From: Candidatus Epulonipiscium sp.
GTDB taxonomy: Bacteria; Bacillota; Clostridia; Lachnospirales; Defluviitaleaceae
Assembly: GCA_012519205.1 (NCBI GenBank)
Contig: JAAYQR010000016.1
Coordinates: 1-64,000 of the forward strand
Length of the DNA stretch: 64,000 nucleotides
Direction of reading: 5' to 3'
Numbering within the stretch: the first letter of the stretch is position 1; each line of letters starts with the position of its first letter. Under the pieces are notes generated by a model that saw nothing but the letters and a program-made list of their open reading frames with translations, did not search any database and was not told the origin of the DNA. Made by a program: the position numbers and the translations under genes. Positions 4,703 through 26,473 of the stretch are shown in pieces.

Positions 4703-5469
4703 ATAGTGATAGGTAAGACTTTGAAATTATCTCTGTCTTTTCCCCCACTCCGCACCGCACGTGAGCCTTTCAGCTCATGCGGCGCTCCATCAAATTAAAT
4801 CAAACTAAGAAATTGAACCTTATGATTACTTTTAACTTTACCAGTTTGAATTAACCTGACTTGAGGCCATCCCTCCACAGTTTATTATCACTGCTTCGTA
4901 GGTACTGTGCCTCTACTCTCACTTAGATTAAGACATGTTTAGCATATGCTTTTCCATGTCAACGTTTCACAGACGATAATATCTCCACGCTCTAAGCTTT
5001 CCACGTTCCTGTGTCTCTATCCTTACATATGGACTTAGGTTCCTTCTATATACCTGTTATAAGCCTCTTGAGCTAACCCCCTATAAGGGTTAATGGTCTT
5101 TCATAATGCACTATCTTACTCAACCACTTATAACGCTCGACTTGGCGAGCTATGTGCATTTCTACACACTATACTATAGGCATTTTATTTCGAAGGTTCG
5201 TCGTTGCTTTGCAAAGGCAAATCCTAACCATATCCGTTTTATGGACTCCCAGTCTATAGGCTACATCGCTTACCTCTAAGCGACTTTCGTGTTTAACTTA
5301 CGGTAGCTCTCAACTGACTTCACCGAGCTTCTAACATCGAGTTTATTATCTAACTCTTTGCTAGTCGGAGTATTAGAGGTGCATTTCAAGGCGTTACCCT
5401 ATCATTCTACATCTCAAGACACAAGTTCTAATCCCTTGGGCCAACTTTTCATTAGCCAACGTGTCGCAC
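4703..5469 (-). mobile_element. ORF-less group II intron inserted in nrdD
   Basis: The nrdD reading frame breaks after codon 349 (MH) and resumes at 4702. The insert begins GTGCGAC, the group II 5' consensus. Near its 3' end a 34-nt domain V (4785-4752) folds perfectly: GCGCCGCA pairs with TGCGGTGC, a CG bulge follows, and TGAGCT / GGCTCA is closed by GAAA. Domain VI follows (AAGAC 4739-4735 with GTCTT 4719-4715) with a candidate branch-point A at 4714. The insert has the same orientation as nrdD, as splicing requires. No reading frame of reverse transcriptase size exists, so a maturase would have to act in trans. The 3' boundary is uncertain: ending at 4703, 4706 or 4709 all keep the frame and give an AY end. 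Protein homology favours 4703; branch-point spacing (8 nt) favours 4706. Confidence 0.9.
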
Positions 5470-6516
5470 ATGCATTGTATTAAGATTATGTATAAAACCT
5501 TCCATAGCTTGAAAAGTCCTTTCATCAACCTCCCTTGCCGCATGCTTTGAAGCAAACTTTTGGGCTTTTACTACTAATTCTTCTTGATTGTATGCTTCAA
5601 GTTTTTCTTTAATTAACTCAAGCTCTACAAGAATGTATTCAGATTTCATTTCTAATTGAGGATTAATTCCTGTTTTATGAATTGCTACTTTTGTACATTC
5701 TTCTACAACCTCTTTCGCTTTATCAAAGGGCACCTCTAATAAGAATTCCAAGGCCTTGCATAAATTGGATTTATATAATTTAATATATGATTTTTCTACC
5801 CCTTTTGCCAGTCCATAGTCAAAATTAGGAATGGATTGCCCCCCATGCATGTCATTTTGGTTGCTTTGGATAGCAATGGCTGCTAAGGCCGCATAACTAG
5901 AGATATCTTGAGGTTCTCTTAAATAGCCGTGACCTGTAGAAAATCCATTCTTAAATAATTTGACTATATCAATTTGACAGCAGGTCATTGTTAAAGTTAA
6001 AAAATCCATATCGTGTATATGAATTTTCCCATCTTGATGAGCCTTGGAATGGTCCGCATTTAATACATGTAGATGATAAAATTCTTTTGCCCCTTCCGAA
6101 CCATATTTTAACATTGCACCCATAGCTGTATTTCCATCTACATTTGCATTTTCCCTCATTAAATTGTTTTCTTCTGCTTCTTCATATGTAATTCCATGAT
6201 AAGTTTTCATTAGCCTTGTTTGGCTTTCTCTTGTTCTTGTTCTCGCAGCCCTATATAAAATATAAGATTTAGCCGTTTTAGCATGGCCCTTTTCAATCAA
6301 TACTTTCTCCACGCCATCTTGTATGGTCTCCACATCTGGAAGATCATTTCGTGGAAAAGTGTTTACTATATATTCTATAACATCTCTGCTTAATTCTTTA
6401 GCAGTTTGATAATTATGTCCTCCAACTGCCATAGCCGCTTTATAAATTGCTGTTGCAATCTTTTCTTCATTAAATTCTACAATTCTACCATCGCGTTTTC
6501 TGATTTGCATTAACAT
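5470..6516 (-). CDS. nrdD: Anaerobic (class III) ribonucleoside-triphosphate reductase, 5' exon
   Basis: The first 349 codons of nrdD. Residues 3-90 form an ATP-cone regulatory domain, recognisable by QIRKRDGRIVEFNEEKIATA. The catalytic domain follows, with GNTAMGAMLKYGSE near residue 130, the HIHDMDF segment and GGQSIPNFDYGLA, all typical of NrdD. The exon ends in HNLNTMH, immediately before the intron at 5469. Without splicing, translation would add VRHVG and stop at 5452, giving a 354-aa truncated product that lacks the glycyl radical site. The gene starts 11 bp after nrdR ends, with a GGGGGA ribosome site, so the two form an operon in which NrdR probably represses its own target. Confidence 0.93.
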
Positions 6517-11577: not shown

Positions 11578-12318
11578 CTATGTAAGTGGCGAAAAAACTG
11601 CCCTACCTTTATCAATATTAATCAAATCTACTTTACCCATATCATATACATCCATGATTTGAATCAACCATTGAATCTTCTTGTCAAATTGCTCCATCCC
11701 GCCAATAGATACATCTAGCCTTTTTACGTATATATGAATATCTCTAAAGTCGCTTATATCAACCTTTACTACATCTTGTAATATATTATATTTTATCATC
11801 ATCTGTGCCATAGTTGCTACCACATCTAAAGATATTTGATTGTTAACAGGAATCACTTGCCCTACTTTAAAAGAATCAAATACCAATCCCTGAACTATAG
11901 GGAGATTTTTTTTATAGGTTTCGCAGGTTTCTAAGACTCGTCCATCTTTATCTATATAAAGATATGTCCCTAAATAAGGAACATATCCTATGGGTTTTCT
12001 TTCATTGATTTTAACCTCTATCGTATTAGGCCAATGAATAGATATCTGAACCATTTCTATATAGGAATCGTCTAAAAGGGCTTTATATGCCTTGTCTTTT
12101 TTGAATAAAAATATATTTTCCCCCACCTTAATACCCATCTTTTCAATAATCTCTTCTTTCGAATAGTGTTCATTTCCATGTAGTAGTATTTGCCTTATTG
12201 AAAAGACTGGAGAGATAAATATGGCTAGCATAAAAATCACAATTAAAATAATTAGAATTAAAAACCTCATGGTTTTTGGCTGTTTTTTATAATTTTTAAT
12301 TGCAATAGTTTTTCCCAT
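11578..12318 (-). CDS. ftsQ: Cell division protein FtsQ/DivIB
   Basis: A 246-aa bitopic membrane protein. A basic N-terminus is followed by one membrane segment (FLILIILIVIFMLAIFI, residues about 20-37), then an extracytoplasmic POTRA domain (IRQILLHGNEHYSKEEI) and the FtsQ domain (VKINERKPIGYV). It belongs to the FtsQ-FtsL-FtsB type divisome subcomplex. The ATG at 12318 has AAGGGTG seven bases upstream; a GTG three codons earlier lies inside that site. It follows murA by 23 bp and ends the mra/mur operon before the ftsZ promoter. Confidence 0.9.
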   Translation of the reverse strand: MGKTIAIKNYKKQPKTMRFLILIILIVIFMLAIFISPVFSIRQILLHGNEHYSKEEIIEKMGIKVGENIFLFKKDKAYKALLDDSYIEMVQISIHWPNTIEVKINERKPIGYVPYLGTYLYIDKDGRVLETCETYKKNLPIVQGLVFDSFKVGQVIPVNNQISLDVVATMAQMMIKYNILQDVVKVDISDFRDIHIYVKRLDVSIGGMEQFDKKIQWLIQIMDVYDMGKVDLINIDKGRAVFSPLT

Positions 12319-12341
12319 AGTTTTCACCCTTGTATTTTAAT

Positions 12342-13595
12342 CTAAAAGCTTTTTTGTATTTTCGCCCCTAGTGAATTTAAATCCTTATCTATTTGCTCAT
12401 ATCCCCTAATGATATGCTTAGCACCTTCAACTACCGTAATCCCTTCTGAAATAAGACCCGCTATAATTAATGCAGCCCCACCTCTTAAATCCTTAGCACA
12501 TACGGTAGTTCCCGTAAGATCTTTAACACCCTTGATGATTGCTGTTCGCCCTTCTAAGGTTATATCTGCTCCCATTCTTATAAGTTCTTCCGCATGTTTA
12601 TACCTTGATTCAAAAACAGTTTCTGTAATAATGCTTGTGCCCCTGGCAACTGTAAGTATAGCCATCATTTGGGCCTGCATATCTGTTGGAAATCCGGGAT
12701 ATGGCTGGGTACGGATAATATCTAAACTTTTTAATTGTTTTGGTGCCTTCAAATATATGCTATCTTTTTCTTCTATAATCCTACATCCAATTTCTCTTAA
12801 TTTGGACGTAATCGCTTGGATATGGTTGGCGTCAACGTTTGTAAGCTGAACCTCTCCACCGGTAATTGCCGCTGCCGCAAGATAGGTCCCTACTACAATT
12901 CTATCGGGAATAACCTTATGCTCTACCTTTTTTAAGGACTTTATCCCTTCAATGTAAATTACATCGGTTGATGCTCCTGATACCTTAGCGCCCATACCGT
13001 TTAAAAAATTTTGCAAATCCTTGATTTCTGGTTCCTTTGCAGCATTATAAATAGTTGTTGTTCCTTCAGCTAAGACAGCCGCTAACATAATATTTTCAGT
13101 TGCTCCCACGCTAGGAAAATCCAAATGAATTTTGGAGCCAACTAATTTTGGAGCTTCACAAATAATAAAACCATGTTCTTCTTTAATTTGAACTCCTAGT
13201 TTTTTTAATGCCTTTAGGTGTAAATCGATGGGTCTAGGGCCTAATGGGCACCCACCAGGATATGAAATAACAATTTTTTTGCATCTTCCCAGAATAGAAC
13301 CAAGTAAAACAATAGAAGAACGCATTTCCCTAACCAAATCTTCGGGAACTTCATAAGAGGAAATTGTTGTAGAATCAACGATTAAGGTTTTATCATCCCA
13401 TCTTACATTGCACCCAATACTTTCAAGAATGCGAATCATGGTAAACACATCCAGTATTTGAGGACAGTCCTGTATATAACTAATATCCCCATTTAAAACG
13501 GTTGCAGCAATAATAGGAAGAACCGCGTTTTTCCCTCCTTGGACGCGGAGCCTTCCCTCTAACCGTCTTCCACCATCTATATAAAATTTGCCCAT
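12342..13595 (-). CDS. murA: UDP-N-acetylglucosamine 1-carboxyvinyltransferase MurA
   Basis: A 417-aa enzyme of the EPSP-synthase fold that transfers enolpyruvate from PEP to UDP-GlcNAc, the first committed step of peptidoglycan synthesis. Visible motifs are GGKNAVLPIIAATVL near residue 20, PGGCPLGPRPIDLH with the catalytic Cys near residue 115, PSVGATENIMLAA, and TQPYPGFPTDMQAQ. The ATG at 13595 is used, with AGGAGG 11 nt upstream; a GTG at 13607 overlaps that site. It takes the place, between ftsW and ftsQ, where murG is usual in related clusters. Its ribosome site can pair with a sequence 78 nt upstream. Confidence 0.97.
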   Translation of the reverse strand: MGKFYIDGGRRLEGRLRVQGGKNAVLPIIAATVLNGDISYIQDCPQILDVFTMIRILESIGCNVRWDDKTLIVDSTTISSYEVPEDLVREMRSSIVLLGSILGRCKKIVISYPGGCPLGPRPIDLHLKALKKLGVQIKEEHGFIICEAPKLVGSKIHLDFPSVGATENIMLAAVLAEGTTTIYNAAKEPEIKDLQNFLNGMGAKVSGASTDVIYIEGIKSLKKVEHKVIPDRIVVGTYLAAAAITGGEVQLTNVDANHIQAITSKLREIGCRIIEEKDSIYLKAPKQLKSLDIIRTQPYPGFPTDMQAQMMAILTVARGTSIITETVFESRYKHAEELIRMGADITLEGRTAIIKGVKDLTGTTVCAKDLRGGAALIIAGLISEGITVVEGAKHIIRGYEQIDKDLNSLGAKIQKSF

Positions 13596-13607
13596 AAAGA
13601 AAGACAC

Positions 13608-13701
13608 CTCCTGAAACTGTCAGGTAAGCCTATATATAAATATAGTATGCATAAGATTAGAAATTGTGACTGAGAGTAAGCATTCTATCAAGCTTCAGGA
13701 G
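13608..13701 (-). repeat. Inverted repeat pairing with the murA Shine-Dalgarno
   Basis: In the ftsW-murA gap, CTCCTGAA (minus 13701-13694) is complementary over 8 bp to TTCAGGAG (13615-13608), which holds the murA ribosome site. The arms are 78 nt apart. Folding could reduce murA translation; chance cannot be excluded. Confidence 0.3.
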
Positions 13702-13711
13702 AAAAGGGTTA

Positions 13712-14854
13712 TTATTTATTTAATTTAGAATATCTAGATATATTGAGTAATATACCCATAGCCGCCATAGTAAATAATAAGGAAGAGCCTCCGTAGCTTA
13801 TAAAGGGAAGGGGCATTCCTGTTGTCGGTATGGTTTTGGTAATAACTGCAACATTAATTAATACTTGTATTCCTATCATACATACTATACCTATGGAAAC
13901 TAAGGAGCCGAATAAATCAGGAGCATTCATGGAAACTTTAATTCCTCTCCAGATTAAAACTAAAAATAAGGACAACAATACTGCTGCTCCTATAAGACCT
14001 AGTTCCTCACAAACAATTGCAAATATTATATCATTATGGGCTTCAGGTATAAACCCAAGCTTTTGCCGACTTTCCCCTAATCCTAGACCAAATAACCCCC
14101 CCGAACCCACAGCATATAGGGATTGAATAGGCTGATAGCCTTTTCCCGTAGGGTCAATCCAAGGATCCTTCCAAATTTGTATTCTACTTAATCTATAGGC
14201 AAATTGAGGGAGCATAACAGCAACTGCACCAAATGCAGCAACCGGTATAGCAAATACAAAAAAGTACCAAACCTTGGGACTGGCAACAAAGAGCATAGCT
14301 ACTCCTATGAACAAAACCACAATGGCAGTACTTAAGTTTGCAATACCAATCAAAACCACAGGAACTGCAATAAAGATAAGATAAAATAAAAGTCCCGTAA
14401 ACTTTTTTAGCTTATTATGATTGTAAACTATTAGAAATGCTAAAAAGAATATAAGGGTGAGTTTTGCAAGCTCAGATGGCTGAAACCCTACAGTTCCAAA
14501 TCCAAACCATCTTTTTTGTCCCTTAACTTCCTTACCTAAAAACAATACCAATACCAAAAGAACTTGGGAAATAAGATATAAAGGTACTGCCCATATTTTT
14601 AAGTTCTTATAATCATAGTTCATCATAAAAATCATGGCACAAAATCCAATCATAGACCATAATATTTGTCTTTTTAGAAAGTGGTACATATCATTATAAT
14701 TATTTAAGGCATAGTAATAACTGGAGCTAAAAATCATTATTACCCCAAATAGAACCAGCAAACATACCGTAAATAAAATGGTGAAGTCACATTGAGTTCT
14801 TTTTATTTTTTTTCTTTGGTGTTTTTTGGATGCCGCAATATCCACTATATTCAC
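13712..14854 (-). CDS. ftsW: FtsW/SpoVE family peptidoglycan glycosyltransferase
   Basis: A 380-aa SEDS family membrane protein with about ten membrane segments. Conserved features include GKEVKGQKRWFGFG in the large loop with the downstream GFQPSELAK, and the C-terminal GMPLPFISYGGSS. SEDS proteins polymerise lipid II into glycan strands with a partner class B PBP. The position after murD fits both FtsW and the sporulation paralogue SpoVE; these cannot be separated by sequence alone. It overlaps the end of murD by 4 bp, so translation is probably coupled. Confidence 0.92.
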   Translation of the reverse strand: MNIVDIAASKKHQRKKIKRTQCDFTILFTVCLLVLFGVIMIFSSSYYYALNNYNDMYHFLKRQILWSMIGFCAMIFMMNYDYKNLKIWAVPLYLISQVLLVLVLFLGKEVKGQKRWFGFGTVGFQPSELAKLTLIFFLAFLIVYNHNKLKKFTGLLFYLIFIAVPVVLIGIANLSTAIVVLFIGVAMLFVASPKVWYFFVFAIPVAAFGAVAVMLPQFAYRLSRIQIWKDPWIDPTGKGYQPIQSLYAVGSGGLFGLGLGESRQKLGFIPEAHNDIIFAIVCEELGLIGAAVLLSLFLVLIWRGIKVSMNAPDLFGSLVSIGIVCMIGIQVLINVAVITKTIPTTGMPLPFISYGGSSLLFTMAAMGILLNISRYSKLNK

Positions 14855-16221
14855 CCTCTCAAGGCATAAACCGCCTGCTTAAATAAATTACCTCTTTCCT
14901 CATAACTTTCAAACATATCCCAACTGGCACAAGCAGGAGAAAGTAAAACATTATCCCCCTCAACTGCCAAATTCTTAGCTAAAACCACTGCCTCCCCTAT
15001 GGAAGATACCCTCTTGATACTATAAAAGCCTTTTTCATTAGCGGTGCGAATAATTTTATCAGAAGTTTCCCCTAGAACGATTAAGGTTTTAACCTTATCC
15101 CCAAACTCATCTATCCATTGGGAAAAATCAGCTCCTTTATCCATTCCCCCTCCGATTAAAACAGTAGGAACTTTCATAGACCTAATGCCAGTAATGGCAG
15201 CATCCACATTGGTCGCCTTAGAATCGTTATAATATTCTACCCCATCTATCTTATCCACATATTCAATTCTATGCTCTACGCCTTTAAATTTTGTGAGAAC
15301 TTCCTTAATCATTTTAACAGGTACCCCAATACAGCTGGCAATTGCCACCGCTGCTAAAGTATTCTCAATATTGTGATTTCCAAATATTCGCATTTCATCA
15401 ATATCACAAATAGCTGTATCCTCACCAAAAAGTTTCAACCATATTTTATTATCTTTTAAAAATACCCCTGTATTTAATTCCTTTTTTCTACTAAAGGATA
15501 CCACCATTGCCTTTGACTTGCTTTTCATTTTCTTGCATATTTCATCATCTTCATTAAGTATACAAAAATCACTTTGATCTTGGTTTTCAAAAATTCTTTC
15601 CTTTGTAGCGATATAATTTTCGAATGTCTTATGTCTATTTAAGTGATCAGGAGTAATATTTAATACTGCACTTATCTTGGGTTTAAATCTATGTATTGTT
15701 TCTAATTGAAAACTACTGATTTCCGCGACAACATAGCTTTCTCTTTTGATATTTCCTACCTGCTCAGTAAATGGAGTACCGATATTACCCACAATAAATG
15801 CATGGGAATTATATCTTTTCATAATCTCCCCTACCAGTGTTGTTGTGGTCGTTTTTCCATTGGTACCTGTAATAGCAATGATTGGGGCAGGACATAGGGA
15901 ATATGCAAGTTCTACTTCCGACCATATGGGTATGTTAAGTTTTTCTGCCTCTTTTATAAATTTTAAATCCGTAGGCACCCCAGGACTTAATATAATTAAA
16001 TCTTGGCAATGTATGATTTCTGTGGGATCTTCCCCAAGTATCATTTCTATTCCCATTTGCTCTAATACTTTTATCTCACCTTCTAAAGTAGTAATCAATT
16101 GGTCTTTCGTTTTCATATCTTGAATTTTTACCCTTGCTCCTAATCTTCGACATAGCTTAGCTGAATTTATTCCACTTCTTGCCATACCGATAATGAGTAT
16201 TTTTTTCTTCTGCCATATCAT
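14851..16221 (-). CDS. murD: UDP-N-acetylmuramoylalanine--D-glutamate ligase MurD
   Basis: A 456-aa cytoplasmic Mur ligase adding D-Glu to UDP-MurNAc-L-Ala. It begins with a Rossmann-like segment (KKILIIGMARSGINSA), carries the ATP-binding loop ITGTNGKTTTTTLVG near residue 112, the central LNITPDHLNRHKT and the C-terminal YNDSKATNVDAAI and GGGMDKGADF. The ATG at 16221 has GGAGG 9 nt upstream; the frame extends 28 codons further into mraY without such a site. It follows mraY by 29 bp. Confidence 0.97.
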   Translation of the reverse strand: MIWQKKKILIIGMARSGINSAKLCRRLGARVKIQDMKTKDQLITTLEGEIKVLEQMGIEMILGEDPTEIIHCQDLIILSPGVPTDLKFIKEAEKLNIPIWSEVELAYSLCPAPIIAITGTNGKTTTTTLVGEIMKRYNSHAFIVGNIGTPFTEQVGNIKRESYVVAEISSFQLETIHRFKPKISAVLNITPDHLNRHKTFENYIATKERIFENQDQSDFCILNEDDEICKKMKSKSKAMVVSFSRKKELNTGVFLKDNKIWLKLFGEDTAICDIDEMRIFGNHNIENTLAAVAIASCIGVPVKMIKEVLTKFKGVEHRIEYVDKIDGVEYYNDSKATNVDAAITGIRSMKVPTVLIGGGMDKGADFSQWIDEFGDKVKTLIVLGETSDKIIRTANEKGFYSIKRVSSIGEAVVLAKNLAVEGDNVLLSPACASWDMFESYEERGNLFKQAVYALRG

Positions 16222-16250
16222 ACTGCTATTCCTCCACTTTATGAAATTAC

Positions 16251-17213
16251 TTAAATCCCCAAGCCCAAAAGTCCTACTAGGCACATAATTGCCGTAGTAA
16301 TACAAAAGACAGAAACTACTTTAGTTTCACTCCACCCAGATAATTCAAAATGATGATGAATAGGGGCCATTTTAAAAATCCGCTCCCGAGTCATTTTAAA
16401 ATAACCTACTTGCAGCATTACTGAAATAGCTTCTATCAAATATATGATTCCAACAATAGCAATAAATATAGGTATTTTAAGGATAAACGCCGTAGCTACG
16501 ACAAATCCCCCTAATGCTAAGGAGCCCGTATCCCCCATAAAAACTTTTGCGGGATGGGAATTAAAAAGTAAGAATCCAAGTAAACTCCCAACAACTGCAG
16601 CCCCTATAGGCAAAATGCTACTGTTTTCTCCCCAGCTTACAATGGTAAAAAAAGTGGCAATTAATACTGTAACACTAGAAGCTAAACCATCTAAACCATC
16701 GGTCAAATTCACTCCATTTACCGTACCTAACATAGTAACAACTAAAAAAGGTATAAACCACCATATACCAAGCTCCATTTCCTTCCCCCCCGAAAAGGGG
16801 ATAAGGGTTTTTGTTCCAATACCTGATATATATAAAATATAGTATGCAAAGCTCCCTGTTATAATGAGTTGCGCTATTATTTTTTGGTATGCCCTTAGAC
16901 CTAAAGATCGTTTCATAACTACTTTAATGAAATCATCTATAAATCCAATAACGCCGAATCCTAAGGTAACTAGTAGAACCGCTATTCCATCTGTATTACC
17001 CTTTATAAATAGTAAAGAAGTAAGTAAAATACTTATAAGAATTATTATTCCACCCATGGTCGGGGTTCCTGCTTTTTTAAAATGGCTTTTTGGCCCGTCA
17101 TCCCTTACATACTGTCCAAGTTTTAGTCTGCTTAAAAAGGGAATCAAAATGGGGCTTAATATCAAATTAATCAAAAATGAAATAAGTGCCGCATATATTG
17201 CTCCTTTATCCAT
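16251..17213 (-). CDS. mraY: Phospho-N-acetylmuramoyl-pentapeptide-transferase MraY
   Basis: A 320-aa polytopic enzyme that moves phospho-MurNAc-pentapeptide onto undecaprenyl phosphate to form lipid I. Family motifs are GTPTMGG near residue 50, FGVIGFIDDFIKV, NLTDGLDGLA near residue 170, FMGDTGSLALGG, and the HHHFE loop (APIHHHFELSGW) near residue 285. It lies 4 bp after murF in the wall operon. Confidence 0.98.
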   Translation of the reverse strand: MDKGAIYAALISFLINLILSPILIPFLSRLKLGQYVRDDGPKSHFKKAGTPTMGGIIILISILLTSLLFIKGNTDGIAVLLVTLGFGVIGFIDDFIKVVMKRSLGLRAYQKIIAQLIITGSFAYYILYISGIGTKTLIPFSGGKEMELGIWWFIPFLVVTMLGTVNGVNLTDGLDGLASSVTVLIATFFTIVSWGENSSILPIGAAVVGSLLGFLLFNSHPAKVFMGDTGSLALGGFVVATAFILKIPIFIAIVGIIYLIEAISVMLQVGYFKMTRERIFKMAPIHHHFELSGWSETKVVSVFCITTAIMCLVGLLGLGI

Positions 17214-17217
17214 AATG

Positions 17218-18618
17218 TTACTTCACCTCTTTTAGTTTTTCTACCGTTTCCTCTAGATGTATTCCTCTTGATGCCTTAAACAATACCATATCCTGATAGG
17301 CAATAAAGTCTTCTAGGTATCTCCAAAGTTCCTGCTGAGTTGAAAACATTTTTACCTTATTATTACTCATACCATCATCAATAGCTCCACGGATAATATG
17401 TTTTGCCTCATTTCCTATACAAAATAAATAATCTATGTCCCTTTTGGCTACATATTTTCCTACTTCCTCATGGGCCTGGGATGAAAAGCTGCCCATTTCC
17501 AACATATCTCCTAATATAGCAATCTTTCTCTTTCCTTCATTTGATTCACTGAGTACATCAATAGCTGCTTTCATAGACTGTGGGCTTGCATTATAGGCAT
17601 CATCAATAATATAAATTCCCTTTTTCGTTTTGGATATATCCATTCTCATTCCAGAAGCCTTATATTTAAGAAGGCCATTTATTATTTCCTGTATGGTTAA
17701 TCCCAATTTAAGCCCAATAGCAAAAGCAACAAGAGCATTATAAACCATATGTTTCCCTGGAGAGGGTATATGTATTGGAATTTCTTGATTATCAAAAACA
17801 ACTACCGCATCTATCCCGGTTATTCCTTTTTGATGTATATCTTTTGCATAAATATTGTTATGGGTTCCTAATCCAAAATATATTGTATTAAAGGGGCTTT
17901 TACTATTTAGATTTATAAGTAAATTATCGTCCCCATTAAGTACTGCTATACCTTCTTTTGGAACATAATCAAATATTTCACTTTTAGCTTTTAAAATTCC
18001 TTCTCTGCTGCCCAAATTTTCAATATGAGACACACCTATGTTTGTAATGATTGCTATATCAGGCTTTGCAATCCTGCTAAGATTATGAATTTCTCCAAAA
18101 TGATTCATACCCATTTCAATGATTGCTGCTTCATGATGTCCATTTAATCTAAAAACTGTTAAAGGTACCCCTATTTCATTGTTAAAATTCCCTTGAGTCT
18201 TTAATATGTTATAGCGTTCACCAATTACGGATGCAATCATATCCTTTGTACTAGTCTTTCCAACACTTCCTGTTATAGCAATAACCGGAATAGGAAAAAG
18301 CGAACGATAAAATGCCGCTAAATCCATCAGGGCTTCTTTGGTATCTTCTACTACTATTAATCCTTTATCATTTGGAACTATTACATCCTCCCTGTTGCTG
18401 ATACAAATTTTGGCCCCCTTATCAAATGCCTGTGGAATAAAATTATGTCCATCGAATTTTTCACCTGAAAGGGCAACAAACAAATCCCCTTCTGAAATTT
18501 TTCTTGTATCCGTAGCTATCTCCTTTATAATTATATCCCCAGCATTTTCTAGATTATCATTTAAAATCAGCCTACCATTTACTGCAGTAACAATCTCACT
18601 TAATTTTATTGCAACCAT
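17218..18618 (-). CDS. murF: UDP-N-acetylmuramoyl-tripeptide--D-alanyl-D-alanine ligase MurF
   Basis: A 466-aa Mur ligase attaching D-Ala-D-Ala to the tripeptide precursor. The ATP loop ITGSVGKTSTKDMIA lies near residue 114, the central domain has GMNHFGEIHNLSRI and TNIGVSHIENLGSREGI, and the C-terminal domain DDAYNASPQSMKAAI and GDMLEMG. The start overlaps the murE end by 23 bp and has AGGAGG 9 nt upstream, so the two are likely translationally coupled. Confidence 0.97.
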   Translation of the reverse strand: MVAIKLSEIVTAVNGRLILNDNLENAGDIIIKEIATDTRKISEGDLFVALSGEKFDGHNFIPQAFDKGAKICISNREDVIVPNDKGLIVVEDTKEALMDLAAFYRSLFPIPVIAITGSVGKTSTKDMIASVIGERYNILKTQGNFNNEIGVPLTVFRLNGHHEAAIIEMGMNHFGEIHNLSRIAKPDIAIITNIGVSHIENLGSREGILKAKSEIFDYVPKEGIAVLNGDDNLLINLNSKSPFNTIYFGLGTHNNIYAKDIHQKGITGIDAVVVFDNQEIPIHIPSPGKHMVYNALVAFAIGLKLGLTIQEIINGLLKYKASGMRMDISKTKKGIYIIDDAYNASPQSMKAAIDVLSESNEGKRKIAILGDMLEMGSFSSQAHEEVGKYVAKRDIDYLFCIGNEAKHIIRGAIDDGMSNNKVKMFSTQQELWRYLEDFIAYQDMVLFKASRGIHLEETVEKLKEVK

Positions 18619-20071
18619 ATGAATTATCCTCCTGAAGAATTGCTCTTACCTCTTCGGCGTCGTCAAAATGATGAACTTTATCTTTGATAATTTGATAGTT
18701 TTCATGGCCTTTTCCTGCGATTAATACTATATCATTTTCACTTGCATTATGGATTGCTTTTTTAATTGCTTTTTTCCTATCTGCTATCTTTTCATAAGGG
18801 CAATCCGTTTCCCTTATACCCTCTTCTATCTCATTGATTATTGCTTCTGGTTCTTCAGATCTTGGGTTATCGGAGGTAATAATGCAATAATCAGAGTAAA
18901 TCCCTGCTATTTTCCCCATAATGGGTCGCTTACTTTTATCCCTATCTCCTCCGCAGCCGAATACGGTTATAATTTTCCTTTTTGCAAACTCTCTAATGGA
19001 TTTAAGTACATTTTCTAATCCGTCTGGGGCATGGGCATAATCTACTATTATGCTAAAGCCTGAATTGCTTTGTATGGTTTGAACCCGCCCTGGGACTCCC
19101 TTCATGTTTTCCAGAGCAGTTTTAATCACCATTACAGGAATTCCTAAATAATAAGCAGAAGCAATGGCTCCTAGAGCATTATATATATTAAATCTTCCAA
19201 TGGTATTTAGTTTAAATCTAATAGCTTCATTATCAATGTTAACTGTAAACTGAATTCCCCTAGAGCTCATCTGAATATCATAGGCCCTAAAATCTACTTC
19301 CTTTTCAATTCCAAAAGTTATAATCTTACAATTTGATTGCCTTATAATTTCTTCGGCATGGGGATCATCCCTATTAATAATTCCGTATTTACACTTTTTG
19401 AAAAGTTTCCCCTTGGCATTTCTATAGTTTTCCATGGTTTTATGGAAATCCAGGTGATCTAAGGTAAGATTTGTAAAGATTCCTACTTCAAAATTACAAG
19501 CAGCTACCCTATCCAATTCAAGAGCGTGGGATGAAACCTCCATTATAATGTGGGTTGCATCTTCTTTATTCATTTGAGAGAACAAGGACTGCAAATCTAA
19601 GGATTCTGGTGTTGTCCTTTCTGCTTCGACAGCCCTTTCCCCGATTCGGTTTTCGATGGTTCCAATAATTCCAACCTTATAATTGTGTTCTTCTAATATT
19701 TTCCCGATTAAAAACGTCGTGGTGGTTTTACCGTTGGTTCCTGTAACCCCTATTAATTGAATATTATTTGTGGGATATTTATAAAATGCTGCTCCAATGT
19801 AAGACATTGCTTTTCTTGTATTGCTTACTTTAATAACCGTAATATCCCTTGGGATGTCTTTAACTTCCTTTTGGACTATAAGGGCTACTGCCCCCCTTTT
19901 AATAGAATCAAACGCATAATTATGCCCATCCACCTTGAATCCCTTAATACAAATAAAGAGAGTATCCCCTCCCACTTGTCTTGAATCATAGGCGATGGAA
20001 CCTATTTCAACATCAGCATTTCCTTGCAGTATTTCATAATCTATATCCTGTAATAAGTCTTTAAGCCTCAT
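18596..20071 (-). CDS. murE: UDP-N-acetylmuramoyl-L-alanyl-D-glutamate--2,6-diaminopimelate ligase MurE
   Basis: A 491-aa Mur ligase. The ATP loop GVTGTNGKTTTTFLIG is near residue 108, TTPESLDLQ and MEVSSHALELDR follow, and the C-terminal domain has SDNPRSEEP near residue 400. The DNPR motif is the known specificity mark for meso-diaminopimelate rather than lysine. It adds the third amino acid of the wall stem peptide. It follows spoVD with a gap of about 100 bp. Confidence 0.97.
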   Translation of the reverse strand: MRLKDLLQDIDYEILQGNADVEIGSIAYDSRQVGGDTLFICIKGFKVDGHNYAFDSIKRGAVALIVQKEVKDIPRDITVIKVSNTRKAMSYIGAAFYKYPTNNIQLIGVTGTNGKTTTTFLIGKILEEHNYKVGIIGTIENRIGERAVEAERTTPESLDLQSLFSQMNKEDATHIIMEVSSHALELDRVAACNFEVGIFTNLTLDHLDFHKTMENYRNAKGKLFKKCKYGIINRDDPHAEEIIRQSNCKIITFGIEKEVDFRAYDIQMSSRGIQFTVNIDNEAIRFKLNTIGRFNIYNALGAIASAYYLGIPVMVIKTALENMKGVPGRVQTIQSNSGFSIIVDYAHAPDGLENVLKSIREFAKRKIITVFGCGGDRDKSKRPIMGKIAGIYSDYCIITSDNPRSEEPEAIINEIEEGIRETDCPYEKIADRKKAIKKAIHNASENDIVLIAGKGHENYQIIKDKVHHFDDAEEVRAILQEDNSYGCNKIK

Positions 20072-20172
20072 ATTATCCTCCTAGTTCTTAGGAATTATTA
20101 CCGCATTATTATAACATACTGATTTATAAAGAACCAACAACAAACACCATTTTTATAGGAAGCAGAAATAAA

Positions 20173-22122
20173 TTACTCACTGGTATAAATAATTACTTTA
20201 CTCTTTGGATTAACTTCTTCCCCTACAAGTGGGAATTGGTCTTTTATTTTTTTGCCATTTCCTATTAATTCATTGCCTAGATTAATCTTTTTCAATTCCT
20301 TTACTGCTTCATTGACTTCTTTATTTATAAGATTAGGTACAATGACCTTTTCTATTTCATCCATTTTTAATTCTTTTTCTGTGTATTTTGCTTCAATATT
20401 TAAATAAGGAAGTATATTTTCTAAAACTTCCTTCATAACAGGTCCCGCCACTGTCCCTCCATAGTAGATGCCCTGGGGTTCGTCTATAATTATCAATGCC
20501 ATAACCTGCGGATTTTCTGCGGGAGCAAAGGCAAGAAAGGATGCGATATACTTTTTACTGCTTCTGGGTAATTTTTCTGAAGTGGCAGTTTTACCACCTA
20601 TGCGAAAACCTGGAATGTAGGTTTTGTTTCCTGTTCCTTCTGCAACTACACTTTCTAATATCTTTTTCATAGTTTCAGAGGTTTCCTTAGATATTACTTG
20701 TTTCCCTTTTTCAAATGAAATTTCTTTAATCACTTTTCCTTCTTCATCTATAATTTTAGATGCAAAATGGGGGGTTATAAGATATCCTCCGTTGACTGCT
20801 GCAGAAGATGCTCTTAGAAGTTGCAGCGGTGTTATCTGAAATGACTGTCCAAAAGACATTGTAGCAAGTTCCACGGGACCTATTTTCTTTAAATCATGCA
20901 TAATGCCTACTGCTTCCCCTGGCACATCTATCCCCGTTTTTTCATTAAAACCAAATAACTTCATGTATTGATAAAATTTCTTAGCACCCACTCTTTCTGC
21001 TGTTACCATAAAAACAGGGTTGCAGGAATTTTGTACCCCTTGAAGAAATGTCTCTGATCCATGGGCCCTTGGATATCTCCAACACTTAATCATTCTCCCA
21101 CCCACAGTATGATAACCCTTGCAATGAAAAGGTGAATTTATATCTATTACTTTTTCCTCCAGCCCCATAGTTGAGGTCATAATTTTAAAGGTGGAACCTG
21201 GCTCATATGTATCATTGATGGCGAAATTACGCCACATTGTGTTTAATTTCTTATATTGATCTTCAGTATTTAGGTGGTCCCATATTTCATTTAACGATGG
21301 ATCATTAATAGTAAAAGGTTCGTTTAAGTCATAATCCGGTTTATTTGCCATGGCATATATTTCACCATTTTGTGGATTTAAAATTATTATACTTCCCCTT
21401 TTTGCACTTTTTGCCTTTACTGCTTTATCTAAGGCTTGCTCCGCATACTGCTGGATGGTTAAATCAATGGTGGTTACTAAATGGTTACCTGGAACAGGTT
21501 CTATCCTTTTTTCGGAGCTGCCTTCTATTTTTCTTCCCTTTCCATCGGTTTCCATTAGAATTTTTCCGGGGCTACCTTTTAAATATTCATCATATTTCAC
21601 TTCTAATCCTATAATACCCTGATTATCTTTTCCGACAAATCCTATGACATGAGAGGCTAGGTTACTATAAGGATAATATCTTTTAGAGTCTTCATCTATT
21701 TTTACCCCAGGCAGATTTAACTTTCTTATTTCATCGGCTACTTCTTTATCGACTTTTGATTGAATCCTTTCAAGGGCAAGTACCTTTGCAACCTTTTTCC
21801 TTACAAATTCATACTCCAAATCAAGCTTCTTAGAAAGTACCCTAGAAACTTCTTCTTCATCTTCAATCTGTGCATGGATTACCCCTATGGTAGTCACCGT
21901 AGCACTTTTTGCCAGCTCTATTCCGTTTCTATCATAGATGGTGCCCCTTTGGGGGGATATAAGCCTGTCTCTTGTATGTTGTTCATAGGCTAATTCCTGA
22001 AGAAAATCCCCCTCCGCAATCTGTAAATAGGCTATTCTAAGTATCAATCCTATGATTGATATTGTAAATACGAACAAAAAAAATAATAGTTTCTGCTTCA
22101 TTTTTACGGTCGGCTTAATCAT
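20173..22122 (-). CDS. spoVD: Class B penicillin-binding protein, SpoVD type, one PASTA domain
   Basis: A 649-aa membrane-anchored transpeptidase: a short cytoplasmic tail, one membrane segment (residues about 12-32), a PBP dimerisation domain (RGTIYDRNGIELA, ASHVIGFVGKDNQG), the transpeptidase domain and one C-terminal PASTA domain (VIVPNLINKEV). Active-site motifs are STFK near residue 310, SCN near 364, and a third motif that reads KTATSEK near 508 instead of the usual KTGT. The single PASTA domain and the second place after another class B PBP match SpoVD, the spore cortex enzyme. A division role (FtsI) is possible, since the two neighbouring PBPs are similar. Confidence 0.85.
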   Translation of the reverse strand: MIKPTVKMKQKLLFFLFVFTISIIGLILRIAYLQIAEGDFLQELAYEQHTRDRLISPQRGTIYDRNGIELAKSATVTTIGVIHAQIEDEEEVSRVLSKKLDLEYEFVRKKVAKVLALERIQSKVDKEVADEIRKLNLPGVKIDEDSKRYYPYSNLASHVIGFVGKDNQGIIGLEVKYDEYLKGSPGKILMETDGKGRKIEGSSEKRIEPVPGNHLVTTIDLTIQQYAEQALDKAVKAKSAKRGSIIILNPQNGEIYAMANKPDYDLNEPFTINDPSLNEIWDHLNTEDQYKKLNTMWRNFAINDTYEPGSTFKIMTSTMGLEEKVIDINSPFHCKGYHTVGGRMIKCWRYPRAHGSETFLQGVQNSCNPVFMVTAERVGAKKFYQYMKLFGFNEKTGIDVPGEAVGIMHDLKKIGPVELATMSFGQSFQITPLQLLRASSAAVNGGYLITPHFASKIIDEEGKVIKEISFEKGKQVISKETSETMKKILESVVAEGTGNKTYIPGFRIGGKTATSEKLPRSSKKYIASFLAFAPAENPQVMALIIIDEPQGIYYGGTVAGPVMKEVLENILPYLNIEAKYTEKELKMDEIEKVIVPNLINKEVNEAVKELKKINLGNELIGNGKKIKDQFPLVGEEVNPKSKVIIYTSE

Positions 22123-22198
22123 ATTATTCCCCCATAATTGTATAGACTATTATTATCATTCTATTTCAATCATGGGGGCATTATTCTATCTTTTGTGC

Positions 22199-24199
22199 TT
22201 ATTCTGTGATTTCATGGTCTATCTTCTCTTCTGTATTTTCCTCATTGCTTTCTGAAAGATATAATTTAATGGTTGTACCTTGTGGAAGCATTGTTCCCGG
22301 TTTGGGGAACTGCTCCTTTATGATATTTCCTATACCAATGCCTTCATAGCTTAGTCCCTTAATAGTAAGGTCCATATCCACCTCTAAAAGGTTTAATCCT
22401 TTATAATCTGGCAATTCCACATTTGATGTTTTTTCAATTTCTTCCGTTGTAGAAGGTTCTATTCCCATATAAGGCAAAACATTTTGGAATATTTCCTTGG
22501 CTACAGGAGCTGCTGTTCCACTTCCTTCAGAATAATATTTTGTTTCATCTAAAAGCACCAGCACAATAATCTGTGGGTTTTCTACAGGGGCATATCCAAT
22601 AAAAGAAAGGACATATTTCCCTTCTTCCCTAGGTAACTTTTCCGCCGTTCCCGTTTTTCCACCAATCCTATATCCTTCTACCTTTGCCTTTTTACCTGTC
22701 CCACCATCAACGACAGATTCTAAATAGTTTCTGAGCACTTGGGAACTTTCCTTAGAGATAACTTTCCTTTTTAGAATAGGGGTTGTTTCGTTTATTGCGC
22801 TGCCATCCTCAGAAACAATTTGCTTAACAATATATGGCTGCATTAAATTTCCCCCATTTATAACAGCTGCAAATCCATTGAGCATTTGGATAGGGGTTAC
22901 GTTAAAGGATTGACCAAAAGAACTGGTAGCTAATTCTACCGGTCTTAAGCCATCCAGATTATGCAAAATTCCCAGGGCTTCTCCCGGCAAATCAATTCCT
23001 GTTAATTCTCCAAAGCCAAACAACTTTTGGTAATGATAAAAAATATCCGGTCCCATTTTTTCTGCAATATCCATCATGGCAATATTACAGGAATTAGCCA
23101 AAACTTCTTCTAGGGTCTGTACCCCGTGCCCAGATGTCTTCCAACATCCTATATTCCGCCCGTATACATTTTTATGCCCCAAACATTCAAAGGTGTCATT
23201 TATCGAGATTATATTTTCTTCTAAGGCAGCTGCAAGTACCAAAGGCTTAAATGTGGAGCCCGGTTCATATGTATCGCTTACGTTGTAATTTCGCCAAATC
23301 TTATTTAATCTTTCTAACTTTTGTTTATCATTTAAATCTTTCCAATCCTTATTTCCATCATATTCACTTAGGTCATTATATTTATTAGGATTGTAGGCTG
23401 GATATGCAGTCATTGCCAGTATCTCACCGGTATTAGGATTCATAACAATCACTGAAGCATTCTTAGGCTGATGCTCATGAATCGCCTTTTCCAAAGCTGT
23501 TTCTGCAAAATGCTGGATTGTTTCATCTATGGTTAGTACAATTGTATTTCCCTGTTTAGCAGGGATATTTTCTTCCGTAATGTACTTACCTTCCTTTAGC
23601 ATGGGAAATACCCGACCGGGGATTCCATTAAGCCGTTGATCATATTGTTGCTCTATACCATATTGGGCTTCTTTATTCCTATTAACAAATCCCAGTATAT
23701 GAGAAGCCGATTCGTTTTTTAAATAATTTCTAACCGAATCCTCTTCTAACCACACCCCTTTTAATTCTTCCTCTTTAATCTTTTGCGCCATATCGACTTT
23801 TATTTGCTTGGCAATCACTTCATACCTAGAATTTGGATTTTTTAATATTCTCTCATTTAGATTCTCAAAGGGTATGTTTAAGAGGTTTCCTATAGTTTCT
23901 AATATCTTCTTTCTTTCTTCTTCAGGGACCTGTTCAATCAATATGTTGGAATCTAATATAACATTGTATACAATTGTACTTAAAGCCAAATCATGATAAT
24001 TCCTGTCAACAATAGAACCCCTATTGGGGTAAATAATTTGTTCTGTATTTAGTCTTTGTAATACAGCCTTTTCCTCATATACTGCTCCATCTACATATTT
24101 AATATATCCTATTCGATACATTAAAAATAGGATGGAGGATACAAAAAACAATAATATCCCAAAGTTTCTTCTTCTCATCTGCCGCATTAGTTTATTCAT
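22199..24199 (-). CDS. pbpB: Class B penicillin-binding protein, FtsI/PbpB type, one PASTA domain
   Basis: A 666-aa paralogue of the downstream PBP, in the position of division PBP2B: after ftsL and before spoVD. It has one membrane segment (residues about 13-33), a dimerisation domain (YPNRGSIVDRN), and a transpeptidase domain with STFK near residue 315, SCN near 369 and the normal KTGTAEK near 515. One PASTA domain (VELPDYKGLNLLEVD) and an acidic tail follow. It should crosslink septal peptidoglycan together with the SEDS protein. It begins 4 bp after ftsL. Confidence 0.88.
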   Translation of the reverse strand: MNKLMRQMRRRNFGILLFFVSSILFLMYRIGYIKYVDGAVYEEKAVLQRLNTEQIIYPNRGSIVDRNYHDLALSTIVYNVILDSNILIEQVPEEERKKILETIGNLLNIPFENLNERILKNPNSRYEVIAKQIKVDMAQKIKEEELKGVWLEEDSVRNYLKNESASHILGFVNRNKEAQYGIEQQYDQRLNGIPGRVFPMLKEGKYITEENIPAKQGNTIVLTIDETIQHFAETALEKAIHEHQPKNASVIVMNPNTGEILAMTAYPAYNPNKYNDLSEYDGNKDWKDLNDKQKLERLNKIWRNYNVSDTYEPGSTFKPLVLAAALEENIISINDTFECLGHKNVYGRNIGCWKTSGHGVQTLEEVLANSCNIAMMDIAEKMGPDIFYHYQKLFGFGELTGIDLPGEALGILHNLDGLRPVELATSSFGQSFNVTPIQMLNGFAAVINGGNLMQPYIVKQIVSEDGSAINETTPILKRKVISKESSQVLRNYLESVVDGGTGKKAKVEGYRIGGKTGTAEKLPREEGKYVLSFIGYAPVENPQIIVLVLLDETKYYSEGSGTAAPVAKEIFQNVLPYMGIEPSTTEEIEKTSNVELPDYKGLNLLEVDMDLTIKGLSYEGIGIGNIIKEQFPKPGTMLPQGTTIKLYLSESNEENTEEKIDHEITE

Positions 24200-24203
24200 T
24201 TCT

Positions 24204-24743
24204 TCACTCTTTCCAGTTTAAGAAGTCAAAAAAGCTAGCAGCTACAAAGTCTTTATTTGTTGTTTCTTCCTCTAATTGCTTTATATTTTTTTCCGGCTGA
24301 TAATAAGCTGTATAGCTTATTTTGGGAATGTTTATGTATACTATTTGATGGGGTGCAGGTTCTATCATTCCTAGGCCTTGTATTGCTTTTTCCTTAATAG
24401 CTGTAAGGTCAATACTTCCTGCTATTTCTGATTTTAAAAGGGCATTGGTATTTTTAATTTCTTTTAAATCTGATTTCATTGTATTGATTTCTTTTTGGTT
24501 AAAAGCAATGGATGCGTACTGTCCCATAAGAAATAAACATCCTATAAAAATCAAAAATACATTCCCTACCAACCTTAATCTATATGATACAGTCCTTTTA
24601 GCTTTTTGAATCTTTTCCTTTTTGGAATAATGGGTATATAATTCCCCATTATCCTCTTGCGCTAGGATATCATGTATATGGGTGTTGATTTTAGGTGCGG
24701 CGCTCCCAAATATATATTGTTCCTGATTGTACCTTCTTGACAT
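24204..24743 (-). CDS. ftsL: FtsL-like cell division protein
   Basis: A 179-aa bitopic protein: a charged cytoplasmic tail of about 70 residues, one membrane segment (LRLVGNVFLIFIGCLFLMG), a coiled-coil stretch (FNQKEINTMKSDLKEIKN) and a region with AIKEKAIQGLGMIEP that is typical of FtsL/DivIC proteins. Sequence conservation is low in this family, so position between rsmH and the division PBP carries much weight. It bridges FtsQ and PBP in the divisome. Confidence 0.85.
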   Translation of the reverse strand: MSRRYNQEQYIFGSAAPKINTHIHDILAQEDNGELYTHYSKKEKIQKAKRTVSYRLRLVGNVFLIFIGCLFLMGQYASIAFNQKEINTMKSDLKEIKNTNALLKSEIAGSIDLTAIKEKAIQGLGMIEPAPHQIVYINIPKISYTAYYQPEKNIKQLEEETTNKDFVAASFFDFLNWKE

Positions 24744-24759
24744 TATAATTCCCCCAAAA

Positions 24760-25695
24760 TTATAATTTTTTTAAAATCCTTAACTTTGCGCTTCTTGACC
24801 TAGGATTACATTCTATTTCTTCTTCCGTAGGTACAATAGGCTTTCTGGTAATTACTTTAACTTGTCCTTTTTTCCCACAAACACATATAGGAAATTCCGG
24901 CGGACAGGTACATGGATTTTCTAAATTTTTAAATGTTTGTTTAACAATCCTATCCTCTAAGGAATGGAATGTAATTATACAAAGTCTCCCATCAGGGGCC
25001 AGTACATCTATAATATCCTGTATGGATTGCTTTAAGATTTCCAATTCTTTATTTACCTCTATTCGTATTGCTTGAAAAGTTCTTTTAGCAGGATGAGGGC
25101 CATTTTTCCTAGCCCCTGCCGGTATGGCTTTTTTTATAATCTCCACCAATTGGTAGGTGGTTTCAATCGGCGTTTTGCTTCTTTCATCCAAAATAAATCT
25201 TGCTATTCTTTTCGCCCATCGTTCTTCACCAAAGTTTTTGATGATATTTTCCAAACCCGCTTCACTATATTCGTTAACCACTTCTTTTGCGGTAAGGGCT
25301 TTGTTTTGATTCATCCTCATATCCAAAGGAGCATCATGCATATATGAAAATCCCCTTTGTGGCTCATCTAACTGATAAGAAGAAACCCCTAAATCTAGAA
25401 GCATTCCGTTAATATAATCAATTTCTAGTTCTTCTACTATTCTCCTTATGTTTGAAAAATTATCATTAACTAAGGCAATGTTTTTGCCCTTATCTAATAG
25501 CTTTATCTTAGAGGCTCTAATTGCATCCATATCTTGGTCTATACCGATAAACCGCCCCTTATCATTTAACTTCTTACATATCTCTTCTGAATGACCTGCT
25601 CCACCCATTGTTCCATCAATGTAAATTCCGCTAGGGTCAATTTCTAATCCTTCTATACATTCATTTAATAGTACTGATACATGATGAAAATTCAT
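24760..25695 (-). CDS. rsmH: 16S rRNA (cytosine-1402-N4)-methyltransferase RsmH (MraW)
   Basis: A 311-aa SAM-dependent methyltransferase with [14 protein letters not shown] at the start, the SAM-binding [13 protein letters not shown] near residue 28, the segment [20 protein letters not shown] near residue 100, and the C-terminal [13 protein letters not shown] and [10 protein letters not shown]. It methylates C1402 of 16S rRNA. Position after mraZ is the standard one. Confidence 0.98.
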
Positions 25696-25713: not shown

Positions 25714-26145
25714 TTATATTCCTAATTCCTGCATGTTTTCAGCTAAATCATTGGCATCAAAATCTTCATCGTTGTTATATGCTTCCCAATTATCCTTACT
25801 CCATATTTCTACTCTGTTTGTGACACCAATGAATATAACGTCTTTTTCTAGTTTACAGTAACTTCTTAAATTATTAGGAATTAATATTCTTCCCTGCTTA
25901 TCGATTGTACATTCTATGGCTCCTGCAAGAAAAAATCTAACAAACTTTCTAGCATTTGAATTAGTTAGCGGAAGGGCATTTAGTTTTTCTTCAAATACCT
26001 TCCATTCCAAATAGGGATACACAAAAAGGCAGTTATCCAATCCTTTTGTCACAACAAAAGTATCCCCTAGTTCATCCCTAAATTTAGATGGAACTATGAG
26101 ACGTCCCTTAGCATCAATGGTATGTTGGTATTCTCCCATAAACAT
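25714..26145 (-). CDS. mraZ: Transcriptional regulator MraZ
   Basis: A 143-aa protein with two AbrB-like half domains. The first begins [23 protein letters not shown] and the second contains [17 protein letters not shown], the DXXXR repeats that bind DNA. MraZ multimers bind tandem repeats upstream of their own gene and control the division and wall cluster. Such repeats are present just upstream (26170-26199), so the regulator and its operator are both intact here. First gene of the cluster. Confidence 0.97.
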
Positions 26146-26169
26146 ATATATCCCACCTTAGGGGGTATT

Positions 26170-26199
26170 CTACCACTTCCCCCCACTTTCAACCACTTT
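26170..26199 (-). promoter_or_regulatory. MraZ operator: three tandem 10-bp boxes
   Basis: The minus strand reads AAAGTGGTTG (26199-26190), AAAGTGGGGG (26189-26180) and GAAGTGGTAG (26179-26170), three direct repeats with an exact 10-bp period. They fit the AAAGTG[T/G]N3 pattern known for MraZ targets. They lie between the promoter and the mraZ start, a place suited to autorepression. Confidence 0.8.
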
Positions 26200-26208
26200 C
26201 TACCTCAT

Positions 26209-26237
26209 ATTGTAGTATGACAGGCTTTTTTTTTCAA
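26209..26237 (-). promoter_or_regulatory. mraZ promoter
   Basis: On the minus strand TTGAAA (26237-26232) is followed after exactly 17 nt by TACAAT (26214-26209), a good sigma-A promoter. Transcription would start near 26202, at the edge of the MraZ boxes. Confidence 0.7.
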
Positions 26238-26259: not shown

Positions 26260-26285
26260 GGAGATAGGAATTATTTCCTATCTCC
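26260..26285 (-). terminator. Terminator after the Spo0E-like gene
   Basis: A 10-bp stem (GGAGATAGGA / TCCTATCTCC, loop of 6 nt) followed on the minus strand by TTTTATTTTTTCC. It ends the small upstream gene and insulates the mraZ promoter. Confidence 0.85.
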
Positions 26286-26308: not shown

Positions 26309-26473
26309 TTATACTTTCAATTGTTTTGTGCGATAAGTTTGATCATAATATAGAACAATTAACTTGTCCAATTCTGTACTTAGTTTATAAATTTCTTGAT
26401 AACTTTTATCCCCTACGATTAAATCATCTAATTTTTCCCGTAGAAGAGTAATTTCCCCATAAACATTATTCAT
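26309..26473 (-). CDS. Spo0E-like aspartyl-phosphate phosphatase family protein
   Basis: A 54-aa small gene read directly from the minus strand. The helical protein contains LSTELDKLIVLYYDQ at residues 31-45, which fits the Spo0E signature S-x-E-L-D-x-L-I-x-x-Y. Members of this family dephosphorylate Spo0A-P and hold back sporulation in Bacillus; clostridial members are less studied. The start has GGGGTGAG a few bases upstream, and a terminator follows 24 bp past the stop codon, so it is a compact single-gene unit between lgt and mraZ. The family call is from motif and size only. Confidence 0.78.
   Translation of the reverse strand: MNNVYGEITLLREKLDDLIVGDKSYQEIYKLSTELDKLIVLYYDQTYRTKQLKV

Follow-up and report, generated by a model that had tools for sequence, protein, structure and literature searches.

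Which signals govern the mraZ-led cluster of cell wall and division genes in Candidatus Epulonipiscium sp., and are the same signals found ahead of mraZ in its relatives? Both questions were addressed for a stretch of 64,000 nucleotides (nt) of this genome (assembly GCA_012519205.1, contig JAAYQR010000016.1, positions 1 to 64,000 of the forward strand), referred to below as the window. The region ahead of mraZ is very probably a σA promoter overlaid by a three-box operator for MraZ, and MraZ bound there would limit its own operon. The promoter and all boxes were found on the minus strand of the window, at the positions given by a first-pass annotation of the same DNA. The features are as follows.

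26232-26237, minus strand: -35 hexamer TTGAAA; a TTG stands at N17 from the -10 hexamer in 20/20 leaders of the window's clade (see below).
26209-26214, minus strand: -10 hexamer TACAAT, from the sequence and the comparison of leaders.
26190-26199, minus strand: MraZ box 1, AAAGTGGTTG, member of the period-10 array.
26180-26189, minus strand: MraZ box 2, AAAGTGGGGG, member of the period-10 array.
26170-26179, minus strand: MraZ box 3, GAAGTGGTAG, with one mismatch, member of the period-10 array.
26150-26159, minus strand: AAGGTGGGAT, ribosome-binding site that differs from a box at one position and follows box 1 by exactly 40 nt (four periods).
25714-26145, minus strand: mraZ, 143 amino acids (aa), two MraZ domains (motifs DAKGR and DKQGR), from family models and the predicted fold.
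11578-25695, minus strand: rsmH, an FtsL-like gene, two SpoVD/FtsI-type penicillin-binding proteins, murE, murF, mraY, murD, ftsW/spoVE, murA and an FtsQ-like gene, the presumed operon after mraZ.

The annotated promoter was recovered as TTGAAA-N17-TACAAT (26237-26209), with a spacer of 17 nt between the hexamers and a gap of 9 nt between the -10 hexamer and box 1. The three direct repeats of the AAAGTG[T/G]N3 type described earlier were likewise found at 26199-26170, with an exact period of 10 bp and 1 mismatch in 21 core positions relative to AAAGTGG. Box 3 is followed by 10 nt, the ribosome-binding site AAGGTGG and the mraZ ATG at 26145. Transcription was predicted from the position of the -10 hexamer to start at about 26202, and the boxes would then cover about +4 to +33 of the start region, close to the +3 to +32 that had been annotated.

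The array was compared with chance expectation and with two sets of related leaders. Both strands of the window were scanned for period-10 triples with at most 6 mismatches, and only the mraZ array was recovered, together with its displacements by one box in either direction (3 and 6 mismatches); across the 2.13-Mb assembly, two triples had at most 3 mismatches (the mraZ array and one shift of the same), and the reversed box pattern gave 0 matches. For the named set, one genome per species was scanned and the best 80 of 588 loci were kept; three near-identical leaders were removed, leaving 77 relatives and the window, or 78 non-redundant leaders. The class-wide set comprised 80 of 175 genomes with an MraZ match, hand-picked mostly from the top. 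In the 78 leaders, the best period-10 array had 0-5 mismatches in every case and 0 or 1 in 31; arrays at any other period between 7 and 14 had at least 3, and the best triple in 390 dinucleotide-shuffled leaders never had fewer than 5. The best array on the opposite strand had at least 7 mismatches in 78/78 leaders, which assigns the boxes to the sense strand. Lack of conservation of the repeats in relatives had been named beforehand as a refutation of the reading, and the outcome did not refute it. With a cut-off of three boxes, period 10 and at most 3 mismatches, the array is kept in 73/78 non-redundant leaders (window included) and in 64/80 class-wide leaders.

The stretch at the ribosome-binding site (26150-26159) is a possible weak extra box. 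A box-like stretch at least 33 nt past the first box was present in 29/73 named leaders, always in phase 9-2, and in 16/64 class-wide leaders, over more phases; the phase is confounded, because leader length itself is conserved. Four leaders of the named set (L036, L042, L051 and L064) carry four or more box-like repeats toward the start codon, and box number thus varies.

The promoter class under the operator differs between lineages. A tree was built from MraZ and RsmH by a quick method and left unrooted, with branch support from the Shimodaira-Hasegawa-like approximate likelihood ratio test (SH-aLRT). By eye, rsmH came next after mraZ in 75/77 loci; L026 and L068 were placed by MraZ alone. 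The window fell within a clade of 20 (support 99), among the records of which are genomes labelled Epulonipiscium, Anaerotignum, Lachnospiraceae and Eubacteriaceae. The pattern TTGNNN-N17-TANAAT, chosen after inspection of the clade leaders, was present in 20/20 leaders inside the clade versus 5/58 outside. Most relatives' leaders have AGGAWTT, 14 nt and GAAT in place of TTGAAA...TACAAT, a pattern that we take to be that of σH promoters. Outside the clade, AGGAWW-N15-GAAT was exact in 33/58 leaders and had at most one mismatch in 50/58, and when the spacing was varied over the ten other values between 9 and 19, the same 58 leaders gave 0 exact matches; inside the clade, 0/20 leaders came within one mismatch, the window having 3 mismatches at best. 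The eight outside leaders without the σH-type motif were L017, L021, L039, L042, L052 and, from Bacillaceae, L071, L072 and L084. In total, 33 exact matches were counted in 77 leaders (about 15,400 bases, sense strand) versus 9 elsewhere in the same loci (about 928,000 bases, both strands).

The distance from promoter to operator was scored for both classes. The end of GAAT lay 6-9 nt ahead of the first box in 36/50 σH-type leaders. TTGNNN-N17-TANAAT lay 6-9 nt ahead in 36/53 good-array leaders of both sets and one box off in 16 more (named set, 12 at 6-9 nt and 12 one box off of 25; class-wide set, 24 and 4 of 28). So the operator and the distance from -10 to box would remain constant while the promoter class changes, and the same Clostridial division operator seems to be driven by a sporulation sigma factor in some lineages and by σA in others. 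On balance the comparison of leaders favours the view that, across Clostridia and their kin, the MraZ operator is a fixed module ahead of which the promoter is exchanged: many lineages would use σH, the sigma factor of entry into sporulation, and the Epulonipiscium/Anaerotignum-like clade of the window would use σA, as would some other lineages. By such swaps of promoter elements, at a constant distance and under the same autorepressor, the whole division and wall operon would move in and out of the sporulation programme.

The relatives' motif might instead be a σA promoter with a TAGAAT -10 hexamer and an accidental AGGA, given that 17 of the 50 σH-type leaders have one mismatch and that TTGNNN-N17-TANAAT recurs in the five leaders outside the clade. 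We regard this as unlikely, since an accidental AGGA accounts neither for the single spacing at which all 33 exact matches occur nor for their concentration in the leaders. The geometry, moreover, equals that of the promoters assigned to σH before ftsZ and spoIIAA of C. difficile (PMC7438776); it is shared by the relatives' mraZ promoters and not by that of the window. The distribution of σH itself also argues for a σH promoter. Genomes were counted for 75/80 class-wide leaders (G034, G137, G129 and G166, with no mur gene in the stretch, and G087, with no array, were dropped). The σH-type promoter occurred in 28/46 genomes with a spore σH over the curated cut-off versus 0/29 in which a match was weaker or absent at 1e-60, counts that are uncorrected for kinship. 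The σA type was found in 16/46 genomes with σH over the cut-off, and promoter class therefore follows lineage, not σH presence alone. One genome classed as having neither type (G177) had a leader stretch too short for scoring the σH motif.

A composite pattern, AGGAWW-N15-GAA-N4..20-GTGG-N6-GTGG, was scanned over 196 Clostridia genomes. Matches were obtained in 30 of them, judged by eye to be 24 mraZ leaders and 6 chance-like sites, and the reversed control matched in 3 genomes. The composite pattern was absent from the window's order (8 genomes, that of the window included). Spore σH exceeded the curated cut-off in all 24 genomes with the pattern at mraZ versus 66/196 overall.

The window's genome encodes σH (333.7 bits) and two Spo0A-type proteins over the curated cut-off (408 and 373 bits; G000:C10:40585-41373 and C11:42312-43103). 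No genome-wide excess of the σH motif was found in it (46 matches vs 59 for the reversed control), and the 260 nt ahead of the two spo0A genes and of spoVG held no σH motif within one mismatch. AGGTAT-N15-GAAT, with one mismatch, precedes spoIIAA; this may be chance, because 4 matches of that grade and spacing occur in 3.2 kb of that strand. Two blocks of σH that presumably contact DNA are well conserved with 13 other σH proteins. Signs that σH of this genome still reads the usual motif are thus weak, and in the window's lineage either mraZ may have left the σH regulon or σH may have changed. The spoIIAA reading frame is interrupted at a G run (G000:C18:24041-24354, locus L130), which may reflect a slip in the assembly, decay of the gene or a switch.

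In C. difficile, σH has been proposed to drive ftsZ, CD2650 and spoVD (PMC7438776); the word mraZ does not occur in the main text of that paper. Wall synthases encoded in the division and cell wall (dcw) cluster of C. difficile have sporulation-specific roles (PMC10693644), and mraZ of C. beijerinckii, which lies in the spoVD/spoVE region, is reported to be transcribed massively from spore cortex formation onward (PMC6362236). A σH promoter before mraZ would join these three observations. Searches of an open-access library yielded no passage tying the mraZ promoter to σH. If the σH promoters are real, the mraZ-led division operon would be switched on at the start of sporulation in many endospore-formers, and MraZ would tune division during sporulation as well as during growth; among the species surveyed, the prediction would apply for example to Paenibacillus selenitireducens, Geosporobacter and Tissierella praeacuta. 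Promoter exchange, if true, would give a regulatory reason for the sporulation-specific dcw wall synthases of C. difficile, and it bears on how spore-formers came to reserve such enzymes for spores.

The protein that would read the boxes was identified by family models and by its predicted structure. MraZ of the window scored 175.6 bits against TIGR00242 (cut-off 98.35) and 153.2 bits against PF02381 (cut-off 23; two stretches), and an alignment of 28 sequences showed no variation in DxKGR (first domain) or D-QGR (second domain). The predicted model had a predicted local distance difference test (pLDDT) score of 91.7. Its structural matches were 1n0e (Z 21.9), 9qlg (Z 21.4), 9sz7 (Z 20.1) and 9r4j (Z 19.3), all with Z of 19-22 and all MraZ of M. 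pneumoniae or M. genitalium; 138 residues were aligned with 9sz7 ("MraZ in complex with 4 box promoter") at a root mean square deviation of 1.7. By their entries, 9sz7 and 9r4j are cryo-EM structures of M. genitalium MraZ on a four-box promoter and on its own promoter. As modelled, the window protein has the solved MraZ fold.

In Mollicute MraZ boxes, the core is followed by an N3 spacer. The Mollicute site consists of AAAGTG[T/G] repeats and occurs once in the M. genitalium chromosome (PMC8475190), and the site in the window resembles it in box sequence, 10-bp period, tandem direct repeats, position before mraZ and single genomic occurrence. It differs in having three clear boxes, whereas the title of 9sz7 names four, and in preceding a far larger operon with mur genes. 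The AAAGTGG boxes of the window differ from those of E. coli, for which the usual consensus is TGGGN with a 5-nt spacer. In layout the site resembles the dcw promoter Pmra of E. coli and Burkholderia cenocepacia: 7-nt boxes separated by 3 nt cover the start site past the -10, and B. cenocepacia has four such repeats, placed as in E. coli (PMC7761207). The site in the window is thus an ordinary, very clean further MraZ operator, and the variation in promoter class is the new part.

Analysis of the window and its relatives gave the sequence of the site, its uniqueness in the assembly, the conservation of its position, strand and period, and an MraZ protein with its predicted fold; binding of MraZ to such boxes and repression are carried over, by analogy, from published work in other bacteria. 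MraZ, as the first product of the operon, would form a ring and read the AAAGTGG boxes one after another along a single face of the DNA, each box lying one helical turn from the next. Placed on the initial transcribed region, this ring would hinder promoter opening or escape and so limit mraZ, rsmH and ten wall and division genes. An MraZ operator is supported by the conserved array, the structures of MraZ on promoters, the fold and family cut-offs of the protein and the same placement elsewhere; by analogy with those systems, autorepression is the most likely form of control.

Several points weigh against this conclusion. The promoter hexamers (10/12 match) occur at chance level, with 9 sites versus 7.6 ± 2.8 in shuffles of this A+T-rich window; the support for a σA promoter is comparative. 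Arrays were poorer in 5/78 named and 16/80 class-wide leaders. Repression as the sign of control is taken from other species, and MraZ reportedly is an activator in Mycoplasma gallisepticum; the corresponding alternative, improbable in our view, is that MraZ activates from the boxes, for example by aiding promoter opening or polymerase recruitment. In M. gallisepticum, overexpression of MraZ came with filamentation and more FtsZ (PMC8475190), the latter speaking for activation. However, the boxes lie downstream of the -10, at the distances given above, in most leaders of the two promoter classes, proteins bound downstream of the -10 usually repress, and in both M. genitalium and E. coli, MraZ is a repressor of division genes (PMC8475190).

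An RNA element or G-quadruplex of the leader, in place of a protein site, is a scarcely credible account of the boxes: they are G-rich, in S. aureus a G-quadruplex is reported immediately past the mraZ promoter (PMC11796246) and some stretches after box 3 fold better than expected, but Rfam gave no family at threshold (one weak opposite-strand match fell well under the cut-off), no shared hairpin after box 3 was seen, a quadruplex needs neither a strict 10-bp period nor the conserved AAA of each box, and structures of MraZ on promoter DNA exist. The hairpin considered after box 3 (GGGAG...CTCCC in some relatives) was rejected: the mean z over 78 leaders was -0.54, with 28 below -1, 4 above 1 and no common fold. 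The S. aureus G-quadruplex, reported as a drug target (PMC11796246), may coincide with the MraZ boxes, of which the passages on it make no mention.

The first-pass annotation had also placed a 12-gene wall and division cluster under the boxes. The genes are present and in one direction, twelve on the minus strand from mraZ to the FtsQ-like gene (26145-11578); co-transcription of all 12, and with it common control by the boxes, is presumed from this arrangement. The FtsL-like protein had no NCBIfam match at 1e-10 and was named by its place, as was the FtsQ-like protein, whose match was weak (41 bits vs a cut-off of 353). The cluster is followed by ftsZ, spoIIGA, sigE, sigG and nrdR. Its two tandem SpoVD/FtsI-type penicillin-binding proteins (20173-24199, minus strand) compare with a single such gene in 73/75 class relatives counted. 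A link between the σA promoter and a second wall synthase was not borne out by the counts: one gene was found in 28/28 σH-type, 29/31 σA-type and 16/16 other clusters, and two genes in only 2/31 σA-type clusters.

Upstream of the mraZ promoter, two further features were found.

26260-26285, minus strand: intrinsic-terminator-like hairpin, 11-pair stem and T tract; 1 found versus 0.4 expected.
26309-26473, minus strand: small Spo0E-like gene, 54 aa, PF09388, 28.7 bits (cut-off 23).

The hairpin, lying after the Spo0E-like gene, would insulate the mraZ promoter.

Elsewhere in the window, nrdD (anaerobic ribonucleotide reductase; 3410-6516, minus strand) is split into two open frames, 6516-5452 and 4633-3410, which correspond to model positions 1-325 and 347-744 of 746. 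No open frame of at least 60 aa was found in the stretch that splits nrdD. This stretch matches group II introns (RF02004, 5430-5238, 169 bits; RF00029, 4787-4703, 61 bits) and is apparently a group II intron, free of open reading frames, inside a housekeeping gene.
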